64,000 nucleotides of DNA from Xestospongia bergquistia (lineage: Eukaryota; Porifera; Demospongiae; Haplosclerida; Petrosiidae): assembly GCA_963965975.1 (NCBI GenBank), contig OZ014420.1, forward strand, positions 3,498,001 through 3,562,000, in the 5' to 3' direction. Positions 11,211 to 26,155 of the stretch are shown here, one piece after another; the first letter of the stretch is position 1; each line of letters starts with the position of its first letter. Under the pieces are notes generated by a model that saw nothing but the letters and a program-made list of their open reading frames with translations, was not told the DNA's origin and made no database searches. A program made the translations under genes and the position numbers.

Positions 11211-11600
11211 ATGGCATTCCAAACTGGACAAAATTATGTTGACAAAAACACCATTACCTAGACAACATCGCCATGCTCAAACAGTGCTTCATTCATGTCA
11301 GTTAACTAGTACTATTGTTCACTGTCTGATCAATATACAACATCTATATGATCAACTTGAACACAGTGCTATCGTCATTGTGTGATCATGGTGGATCCAC
11401 AGACAAGATCATCATGCTCAACAATACTATCATTCATCGTTGTCAGCAGCAGACAAAATCGTCATGCTCAAACAAAATCGTAATGGTCAAACGCTCCGCC
11501 CAACGGAACTGACGTTACCTGTCGTCATATGTTTTGTTAATAAGATTAATTATTATTAATTATTATATTGCTAGCAATCTATTTAATGCGTATTAACACA
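11211..11600 (+). repeat. Left terminal inverted repeat of the HECT/integrase unit
   Basis: Begins ATGGCATTCCAAACTGGA and pairs with 26155-25766 with few mismatches and one-base indels. It contains five copies of a 15-16-base motif, consensus near ATCGTCATGCTCAA, at 11266, 11341, 11406, 11456 and 11475. Such subterminal repeats are what transposase-binding sites often look like. Confidence 0.85.
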
Positions 11601-12145
11601 TTGTTGTAATACTTCAGTTAATAGAGAATCTTGTTTAGATGATAACTTTGATAGTGCCTAAGGGAGTAGCATACTTTCTTTTCAAGTGAATTTACAATTG
11701 TTATGCCAACATGTAATCATGAGGTTTACTACTTTGATGAGGACGAAGGCCTAAGTTCTGATCATGAGATCTTGAGTCAGAAACAAATTTAGAAGTCATT
11801 TCTATTGTGCAATGTATAGCCAATAAAGACTACTAAAGGGTCATAAATAAATCTGAAAGGGGAAGGAAGAATTTGCTTTGGGAAATTTGGTGTGAAGATA
11901 ATGAAAGAAGATTGGAATAATGATCAGATATCATTGGACTAGAATGCTCAGATGATATGATAAAGCCAGTGATTAGTGTTATTAGGAGATAACTCTATAA
12001 GTCTAAGATGTTTTTGTCTTTGTGGATGGATTTCTCAAAAATGGTTTCCATTTAAAACAAATTTAGGCAGATACCATCTTTCATGACAATCATCTCTTGT
12101 GTACACAGAGCCCACCCAACTGTTTTACTGAATAAGAACATACAG

Positions 12146-12262
12146 AAGCTGAAAGCGGACATCTAATTCTATTTTGTAATTCTATTTTGAAATTTTCCAA
12201 AAATATTCCAATTCCAATTCTATTTCTTATCCTTTGATAGAATATTTAACAATTCAAATTGA
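12146..12262 (+). repeat. Left end of nested inverted-repeat block
   Basis: Matches the reverse complement of about 16993-17150, starting at 'gaagctgaa' and including 'attccaattccaat'-like and 'gaatatttaacaa'-like stretches. Identity is moderate, perhaps 75-80% by eye. The pair encloses the FN3/transmembrane receptor remnants. Confidence 0.6.
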
Positions 12263-12544
12263 GCTCAATGAAGTGAAGTGAGCACAGTGAGTACACATGA
12301 AAACAAATCTATTATTGATAATATATAAAGCAGTACTAAAGATTATTATAAACTATTTACTTTACACAGATATAATTTGTTTCTATCTCTGTCAACTCAG
12401 TTGATCACTTCAATAACTGCATAGCATGAAATTACCAGACACAGTTATAATTATCAATTATGTGAACTAGTGTAAAAAGTAAATTTAAACACATTATTCA
12501 TTTATTTTAACATATTATATTATAACGTGTGATAATCCTTTAAT

Positions 12545-22855: not shown

Positions 22856-23049
22856 AAAATTAAACACCTAGTCATCCAATTTAATCATTTATAATTATAC
22901 ATACCATAATTTACCACTTGTTAAAATCATTCAACTTGATGTTCATGAATGAATTTACTCAAAACCAATCATACCATATACCATTGTCTTATACAATGTT
23001 ATCAATAATGTGGTCAATTAGATTTATGTTATAAATTTATTATTTTGGA
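22856..23049. other. Intergenic gap between convergent HECT and integrase genes
   Basis: Only 194 bases separate the two stop codons. It is AT-rich and must hold both 3' ends. Confidence 0.6.
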
Positions 23050-25767
23050 TTATATATCAAGTAGTCGATTCAGTTCATTTATTACTGAGCAAAACAAAGT
23101 TATACCATAATTATTATCATCTGTTAAAGGGTGTGGAAATTGAGCAATTGATTCTGATGGAAGATTTATATGAGGAGGATCCACAACAACGGCATTGTCT
23201 GGTACTAAAATATCCGGAGTAGGACCATCCTCTTCAATGCCATATACATCTGTATCAATTGTCATTGGGTCAATGGCATGTGGAGAGACTGTAAACAACT
23301 GTAAAGGTGTTAGATAATGCTCTGTTCGAAGTGGGTGGTTGTTGTATTGCCTTTTAAATTCATTTAGTGCGCGATTTACTCGAGGAATAAAAATATAATG
23401 AAGTGCAAAAAGGTGGTGTTCATTTAGATGGTCTAATAACTCAACAGATTCCAGGAAATAGAATAGATTTTGAAACTGTCTCAAAACTACACGTTTTACG
23501 TCTCTCCAAAGGCGCTCTATCCTCTGATTGTGTGTTGAACTGCCTGTAATAATTGATTGTCGGTTTACTCCTCTAGCTTCTAACATAAAACGTGCAACAC
23601 CAACATTTTCTGTACCTAGGTCACAATGAACACGAGATGGTACTCCAAACTCAGCTACTGCATCTCTAAAGCAATCCAAGACAGTTAACGACTGGTTGTT
23701 GTTTGAACATCTAAGGTATGTAACTAATCTGGAATATCCATCGATACCTAGAATAACATAAATAATCCAAAATCTGACAATTTATTGATTATATTAGTCT
23801 GGTACACTACTTTTTCCTATTATTGATAATTATTGATAATAATTATCAAAATTGAAAAGTAAGATAAGTAGCTTAGGCAACAAAAACGCTTTGAACTAAT
23901 CAGAGCTATGAATAGACCATTGTAGTAACTTAGTTTGTAAATCGAAGACCACATGGGCTATTGTTTGAGGCTATACACTAAATGATACTTTCAGTTGATG
24001 AACCATTACTGTCTGTCATTATCTGTTTGCACTACAACTACCAACATTTGGTTTAAAAAGTAATGTTGCTCTCTATACAACCACAACTAGGTTGATTATA
24101 TTTACTATACATACCTCCATGGATGACCATCTTCCACCTGATGAGCTTGTGGTTTCCATCGATATGCTTATAACAAATGTGTAATTATATGTAAACATTA
24201 ATTTTATACAACACTTATGTCTTATAGGTGCAACATTTCCCACAGATGAACTGTCCAATATGACAGTCTATTAGATACTATGTGGCTGTCTGTTACTGGG
24301 TATTTGAATGCATGATACATATTACGATATAATATATTTGGCTTGACTTGCCATAAAAACATAGCAGATTCATCTGATATTACTCAGTTAGCACTCTAAT
24401 GTTACACACAGGCACATTTAAGAGTCTAAGTTAACAAAAGCAGAAAAAAGTTATTTCAAGCCTAAAAATATCAAATCTTTGAGTAAGACTTACATATTAG
24501 TTAAATGCTATCAAGTATTTACCATCCATGATTGTGACAAAAAGTAATTTTTAAAAAGGTGGAGCAAACATCATAGCAGATTAAGCCACTGTTATGGATG
24601 TCATTTTCACAAACCTTAAGAATTGTAGCAACAGGCATATCAACAAACTATCAAATAAAGGGTATGTTCAGAAGTTTTTTGATTTTCATAGATGAAGTAA
24701 GGCCTTGAAAAACCAAATTGTTGGCAAAAATTCATTCCCTGAACGTAATATTTACATTGGTATAGACTAATTTTAATTACCTTTAGAATAACATACATAC
24801 TGTATTAGGATGTCTGTGGAAGTTTTTGGAAACAACCCAAGTTAGACATGAAAGTATCCTGTATTATGTAACATATTCCAAAAGACATTACTTTCACATC
24901 ACAATATAAAAATTTGCTATAAGAACACTAATTGCTAACCACAGTACTGTAATAATGAAGTAAAGAATGCACAATATTTACTATAAAGCATTTGGTCCTG
25001 CAACAGAGTAGCGTCGACGGTGTATTCTAGCTGCTCGTCTTAAAGACTGACTGACAGGATCAACTCTTTGCATGCTCTCAATAACTCTACTTCTTTGGAT
25101 GAGTCCCCGTGAGAGTAAGGCCCCCCGAACAAGTGACAATCCAGAATCCATTGTAACCTGTTGTTAGTATACAAACAATTTTTATAACCAAATTCATCCA
25201 TTCCAAACACTTCTATTATATCATGTACCAGTTGATGTCAATATTACCTGTAAAATGTTAAAGATTATGTCATCCAGTTCTTCATTAGAAATCTGTGTGA
25301 AGTTATTCCCTATTCCAAGACCAAACAGTTCTCTTCGTCTTCTTAAAGTTCTTTCAGACACTCCAAGAATCATAGACATTTGCTGGAAAACAAAGGTTCT
25401 AAATCTTCTTTACGAATATGGTATGATGGCCGTCCAGGATGTCTTGTTCTTTGACAAGAAAGATGTTGGTTAGTAGGGAGGTTGCTAGGATCAGGTTGTG
25501 TCCGAAGGGTCCATTCCCCATAATGGGACACAACCTTTGAAATTCTCCTATTACATACTCAATATCTCTTATGACTTCTTGTGGAGTATGGTCATTTTCT
25601 AATACTCTCCCTAAAATCACTCGAAGGACACTTATACAGTCTTCAGCCCTAAAAAGTAAGTTCTCTGCCAAATTTAAGTCGTCGGTGTTATAGTGACGAT
25701 GGAGTTGAGATGACAATCCCAATAGGTACTCCAGAAAAGAGTCTATATCAAAGGTTGAACTCGTCAT
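23050..25767 (-). CDS. DDE integrase-core protein, spliced, probable transposase
   Basis: Minus-strand exons: 25767-25248 (N-terminal region, GRPSYHIRKED, then helix-turn-helix-like MILGVSERTLRRRRELFGLG), 25157 to about 24986 (VRGALLSRGLIQRSRVIESM to YSVAGPNAL), 24166-24115 (HIDGNHKLIRWKMVIHG), and 23747-23050. The donor at 24114 and acceptor before 23747 join GG to IDGYSRLVTYLRCSNNN in frame. The rve-like triad is visible: Asp in HIDGNH, Asp in HCDLGTENV, Glu in HNQRIERLW, with 34 residues between the last two. A proline/acid-rich tail follows. Exon 1 has two apparent frameshifts (near 25400 and 25450), and the tryptophan expected before HIDG is a TAG or a misread splice. The gene starts at the inner edge of the terminal repeat, as a transposase would. 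Confidence 0.8.
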
Positions 25768-26155
25768 GTGTAAATGCGCATTAAATAGATTGCTAGGAAT
25801 TTAATAATTAATAATAATTAATCTTATTAACAAAACATATGACGACAGGTAACGTCAGTTCCGTTGGGCGGAGCGTTTGCCATTACGATTTTGTTTGAGC
25901 ATGACGATTTTGTCTGCTGCTGAGAACGATGAATGATAGTATTGTTGAGCATGATGATCTTGTCTGTGGATCCACCACGATCACACAATGACGATAGCAC
26001 TGTGTTATAGTTGAGCATATAGATGTTGTATATTGATCAGACAGTGAACAACAGTACTAGTTAACTGACATGAATGAAGCACTGTTTGAGCATGGCGATG
26101 TTGTCTAGGTAATTGTGTTTTTGTCAACATAATTTTATCCAGTTTGGAATGCCAT
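25766..26155 (-). repeat. Right terminal inverted repeat of the HECT/integrase unit
   Basis: Reverse complement of 11211-11600 at about 97% identity. Its inner edge runs into the start codon of the integrase gene (25765-25767), so any promoter for that gene would lie in this repeat. Its outer edge touches the truncated LINE that starts at 26161. Confidence 0.85.

Follow-up and report, generated by a model that had tools for sequence, protein, structure and literature searches.

The 64,000-nucleotide stretch analysed here (the window) comes from the sponge Xestospongia bergquistia (assembly GCA_963965975.1, contig OZ014420.1, positions 3,498,001 to 3,562,000 of the forward strand). Positions 11210-26156 of the window are confirmed as one DNA transposon of ~15 kb, in which long terminal inverted repeats enclose a ubiquitin-ligase gene of the HECT type and a transposase gene running towards each other. 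Its features are as follows, with exon edges set by eye.

11210..11601, + strand: left terminal inverted repeat, 392 bp, starting with TATGGCATTCC
11602..17667, no strand: AT-rich stretch of ~6 kb without any stop-to-stop open reading frame (ORF) of at least 90 aa
17668..22855, + strand: HECT ubiquitin-ligase gene, ~8 exons, edges tentative
17668-17700, 18114-18650, 19163-19309, ~19501-19560, 19722-19975, 20034-20448, 20549-20930 and 22609-22855, + strand: tentative HECT exons
22609..22855, + strand: exon of the HECT C-lobe, holding the Cys in NACFYTLHLP that aligns with the catalytic Cys
22856..23049, no strand: gap of 194 bp between the two convergent stop codons
23050..25767, - strand: DDE integrase/transposase gene, ~4 exons, with frame breaks in the first exon
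23050..23781, - strand: ORF with the integrase core exon (Pfam rva_4, E 3e-62), holding the second D and the E
25766..26156, - strand: right terminal inverted repeat, 391 bp, its + strand end being GGAATGCCATA

An earlier note, made from the sequence alone, had described inverted repeats of ~390 bp, two converging spliced genes with 194 bases between their stops and an integrase ATG touching the right repeat, and the analysis bears out all three. The repeats were first detected as two blocks, 277 and 114 nt long and free of gaps, with 97% and 96% identity; in a global alignment of the arms, 379 of 392 columns are identical and one is a gap. In 20 mononucleotide shuffles of 9000-28500, no exact inverted word was longer than 18 nt, so the repeats are not a product of chance. 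The HECT gene stops at 22853-22855 (+) and the integrase gene at 23050-23052 (-), while the integrase ATG (25767-25765) reaches into the right repeat at its inner edge. The ORFs of at least 90 aa within the element are pieces of these two genes, plus one antisense to the integrase.

Four single ORFs of the HECT gene gave no Pfam HECT match at E 0.1. A composite of 691 residues, with the exons joined and an X at each of the two frame breaks, did match PF00632 (E 3.5e-13) from profile position 6 to 303 of 306, a near-complete bilobal domain, and its Cys aligns with the Cys of TCFN in E6AP. By domain and Cys, the protein is a predicted HECT E3 ligase whose gene is itself broken, since exons 18114-18650 and 20034-20448 need frame changes to be read through. 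The HECT domain is shared with animal G2E3-like proteins. G2E3 has PHD/RING domains before its HECT domain, whereas Pfam reported the HECT domain alone in the composite and neither PHD nor RING; a CUE-like segment was seen by eye only and not reported by the Pfam scan. In the window integrase, the D, D and E are found in HIDG, CDLGTEN and NQRIERLW, and no variation is seen at the matching positions of 13 aligned integrases, a set to which the window copy does not belong. Hence, the catalytic residues that the earlier note had called intact-looking are indeed present in both proteins, but the genes around them are not intact: with frame breaks in both, the window copy is dead.

The left repeat has at least 36 matches in the 146-Mb genome. 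Together with the HECT gene and the integrase core it recurs at C8 (2971598 down to 2953186) and at C11 (2572307 down to 2561235, without the part matching window 14.5-17.4 kb), so that the genome search proposed in the earlier note returned copies with both genes, although both are cut short on the right. A copy at C4 (2547824 to 2557845) has kept the integrase core and the last HECT exon, has lost the other HECT exons and stops at the inner edge of the right repeat. Apart from the part missing at C11, the AT-rich stretch is largely common to the C8, C4 and C11 copies. With the HECT exon starting at 20549 as query, the genome gave four matches, namely the window, C8, C11 and C1:20096178; the last is a fragment adjoining a piece of terminal repeat, and all four thus lie in or beside element sequence. 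The recurrence of the same HECT and integrase unit with these repeats supports the earlier proposal of one transposon with a ligase as cargo or accessory factor. A HECT gene at a repeat-free locus would have spoken against that proposal, and none of the window family was seen in this genome. Repeats around the integrase alone, the other contrary sign, were found in part: L009, L010 and L011 consist of the two repeats, the left part and a 5' part of the integrase gene. As they lack the HECT exons and the integrase core, we read them as deletion derivatives of the complete unit. L012 holds the two repeats with left and central pieces only. The frame breaks are unlike between copies, indicating that at least part of the decay came after insertion. 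Near the C8 copy, diverged integrase (44%) and HECT (36%) pieces lie at ~7500-8200 of L013, perhaps an older related element.

Seven elements with two ends were compared, those of the window family with their ends located via the tip sequence itself, and all seven start with TATG and end with CATA. Exact 6-bp target duplications flank four of them:

L009, deleted copy of the window family: TGTGAG
L010, deleted copy of the window family: CCTTTT
L057 element, 7603 bp: CTATGA
C11:5444254-5460782 element, 16529 bp: AAAGGA

The latter two, elements of 16.5 and 7.6 kb, represent two other families, with integrase cores 47% and 54% identical to that of the window and a HECT exon facing the integrase. 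Convergent genes inside target duplications in two further families again support a single transposon. The element at C11:5444254-5460782 has an open integrase frame of 453 residues facing a HECT gene, the last exon of which matches PF00632 (3.5e-8) and contains a TASTC motif; its earlier exons were traced by eye and seem to contain frame breaks. L057 has its last HECT exon pointing towards the integrase. The C11:5444254-5460782 element (L056 with L058-L060) also has inner inverted arms of 4.2 kb and 99.6% identity, which include the 5' part of the HECT gene as well as integrase-like pieces.

The pairing extends across the genome. A Pfam HECT match lies within 5 kb of 28 of 90 integrase clusters and is convergent in 22 of these 28, against 0.7 expected by uniform placement, which is a rough yardstick because integrase matches cluster along chromosomes. 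The clusters were built from 99 of 146 integrase rows, themselves obtained from 150 scored of 217 candidates, and were compared with 106 HECT rows genome-wide. Queries with the last HECT exon gave a match at most ~1.5 kb away in 27 of the 30 best integrase loci (26 of 29 distinct ones, L020 and L025 being one insertion), with the exon convergent to the integrase in 23 (22 of 29); it was not found near the integrase of L021, L031 and L032. At C10:3770842-3777889 two such pairs stand back to back as a mirror image, with the integrase starts face to face. Integrase copies of like score and the same or near stop counts also recur every ~110-200 kb within one stretch per chromosome (C5 4.62-5.12, C6 3.43-4.16, C7 4.67-5.24, C11 3.47-3.74 and C15 2.54-3.16 Mb); these stretches look like repeat arrays of very large size, which may be centromeric.

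A scan of bacterial and archaeal genomes returned four contigs with the integrase (L061-L064), all in bins of sponge symbionts, and we take them to be host DNA. One of the four, L063 from an Iophon symbiont bin, holds both genes in convergent orientation, with an open HECT frame of 370 residues that matches PF00632 at 1.5e-6 over the C-lobe only and, in its last part, the HECT exon of the C11 family at ~2e-5. L064 ends inside the integrase and L061 ~1 kb past it, and the stretch downstream of the integrase in L062 reads by eye as a retroelement. Among virus contigs, four stretches fit the search pattern and none was related to the integrase. The recurrence of the arrangement bears on whether the two genes are neighbours by chance, with an integrase element that landed next to or around a host HECT gene before the segment was duplicated. 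HECT matches far from any integrase do exist in the genome, and many integrase copies resemble repeated segments. Against this stand the convergent arrangement in three families, two of them inside exact duplications, the convergent pair in the sponge-bin contig, and the position of every match to one HECT exon in or beside element sequence. A chance neighbourhood is thereby largely refuted and appears extremely improbable.

To a search with the L063 HECT protein, 123 related proteins were found, the 120 listed including uncharacterized ones from Dysidea avara (sponge) and Brachyhypopomus gauderio (fish); the Cys does not vary among 30 aligned relatives. Contigs of equal length in two lists of related proteins were considered as a sign of co-occurrence and set aside as too ambiguous. 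Its structural model (mean pLDDT 90.5) suggests a HECT fold, the 50 listed of 177 PDB matches being HECT ligases. In this modelled fold, and in the Cys of the window protein, the ligases of the transposons resemble solved enzymes such as UBR5, NEDD4, E6AP and others; unlike them they are not host-encoded, and L063 shares only 11-18% identity with the listed matches.

Across the loci with long matches of both the HECT exon and the integrase (21 loci, 20 distinct), the distances of the two correlate with r = 0.96, a value reached in 0 of 5000 permutations; we attribute most of this correlation to the division into three families. For the last HECT exon, with H11 as reference, dN/dS was 1.38 in the 28 closest pairs, followed by 0.50 (65 pairs), 0.28 (31) and, at saturated distances, 0.27 (72). 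For the integrase core the values were 0.79 (37 pairs), 0.49 (85), 0.48 (80) and, at saturated distances, 0.19 (10), and with the window exon as HECT reference (13 loci from more than one family) 3.23 (8 pairs), 0.54 (19), 0.55 (7) and 0.37 (21). Both genes therefore look constrained at larger distances and not among close copies, which we regard as signs of past constraint; as the pairs share ancestry, the pattern is support for such constraint and not proof. A transposon's own genes usually show just this, with drift once a copy has inserted and constraint along the active lineage. The HECT gene could instead be a passive passenger, a captured host gene kept by linkage and useless to the element. 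Cargo exchange does happen, the TET/JBP genes of fungal IS3EU elements having switched between transposon superfamilies according to the accessible part of PMC12730594, and inside the window family the last HECT exon shows no constraint (pN 0.044, pS 0.036, summed over 6 pairs from 4 loci). The joint divergence of HECT exon and integrase in all three families, the dN/dS values under 1 among more distant pairs, the invariant Cys and the modelled HECT fold argue against a passenger, which we consider very unlikely.

The kind of transposon is already known. As far as the text of PMC10045372 was accessible, it mentions 45 IS3EU families in Repbase and gives TA..TA ends with usually 6-bp duplications for IS3EU, mostly TA..TA ends for GingerRoot, and duplications of 4 bp for Ginger1, 4 or 5 bp for Ginger2 and 6 bp for Polinton. 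In agreement with IS3EU/GingerRoot, the ends are of the TA..TA type in the window and in the six other two-ended elements, the four duplications are of 6 bp, and the DDE transposase comes without a zinc-domain match: upstream of the core in L056 and L057, Pfam gave no match to an HHCC zinc domain and only helix-turn-helix-type and unrelated weak matches, one of them (HTH_8) over the cut-off. The unit could also be a relative of Ginger1/Ginger2, Polinton or retroviral integrases. The window integrase does have a weak Pfam rve match, and P0001, an integrase sharing 99% identity with the one in L056, has a model (pTM 0.52) that matches retroviral integrases besides IstA and TnsB, at whole-length TM-scores below 0.3. 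However, the ends and duplication lengths are unlike those of Ginger1 and Ginger2, and while Polinton shares the 6 bp, the element has no further ORFs of at least 90 aa (no search was aimed at Polinton genes). An origin outside IS3EU/GingerRoot is hence very unlikely. Compared by published descriptions and not by alignment with a reference IS3EU sequence, which lessens the weight of the assignment, the element is very probably an IS3EU/GingerRoot-type cut-and-paste DNA transposon that carries its own HECT E3 ligase, tail to tail with the transposase.

Several further observations weigh against this interpretation. Target duplications are absent from L011, L012 and the window copy, whose flanking 6-mers are ATTGCT and CCATAC, and all four window-family copies with HECT or integrase-core sequence are broken or shortened in both genes. 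The earlier exons were looked for in L057 and not recognised, and the HECT protein of L063 gave no significant match to queries with the window exon and the N-lobe, the link being the last exon only. No Pfam HECT match lies within 5 kb of 62 of the 90 integrase clusters; 4 of the 27 HECT neighbours are not convergent, three of these being matches of only 20-27 residues, and several integrase loci are near-identical to one another. To the lack of constraint within the window family it has to be added that the dN/dS pairs are not independent and that the HECT exon is short.

The apparently new part is the HECT ligase beside an IS3EU-type transposase. DNA transposons usually carry little beyond the needs of movement. 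The word HECT occurs in neither PMC10045372 nor PMC12730594, and the accessible part of a killifish paper mentions IS3EU only for its abundance. Literature searches found no paper with both IS3EU and HECT, with Repbase and the GingerRoot paper outside their reach; as Repbase entries lay outside the comparison, the pairing may be recorded there. Broader searches gave, among the matches listed, nothing on HECT genes in transposons except a fish paper (PMC5638112). A close parallel is found in the TET-positive IS3EU elements of fungi, those of rust fungi ending in TAYGG..CCRTA, compared with TATGG..CCATA here. In the accessible part of PMC12730594 they carry an accessory enzyme gene (alpha-kinase) opposite to the transposase gene, and their TET enzyme is proposed to counter host silencing. 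They differ in belonging to another kingdom and in their accessory enzymes; the partner described here would attach ubiquitin.

For the mechanism, we infer that the transposase would cut at the TA..TA ends and join them to the target at positions 6 bp apart, by cut and paste, while the HECT ligase would act as an accessory factor that keeps the lineage mobile. If the element is what we propose, the ligase would most likely, at roughly even chances, tag a host restriction, chromatin or repair factor with ubiquitin, a ranking that draws on TET, for which a role against silencing has been proposed in fungal transposons. Less likely, it may set the level or turnover of the transposase itself. The recurrence of the pairing in related elements suggests that the transposon uses the protein-tagging system of its host. 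A lineage that retains a ligase next to its transposase suggests that protein tagging is one arena of the conflict between transposons and their hosts, in parallel to the TET enzymes of the fungal relatives.

The earlier note had also mentioned that G2E3-like HECT genes are unusually numerous in fish and invertebrates. The evidence leans slightly this way: the accessible part of PMC5638112 describes unclassified fish repeats matching G2E3, and the relatives found here are named from coral, sea cucumber, sponge and fish. Searching with part of the window composite led to two proteins; one relative, from Holothuria, is named a G2/M phase-specific E3 ligase, and in a relative from Stylophora the scan found no Pfam domain. 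Tentatively, an animal IS3EU lineage may have carried the ligase since before the families split, as a counter-defence or transposition factor, and may have seeded G2E3-like HECT genes and so explain their numbers. Lineage-specific expansions of HECT genes would then have a source open to testing, and genes predicted as HECT in sponges, perhaps also in fish or corals, may belong to transposons.

Outside the element, ORFs resembling reverse transcriptase by eye lie to its left at window 7253-10480; the two that were scanned, 7253-8725 and 8782-9330, had no Pfam matches. Overlapping ORFs at 36162-37036, one with an rve core (PF00665, 2.1e-11), probably belong to a retroelement, and 45415-45970 is a tandem array with 5.5 copies of a 102-bp unit.

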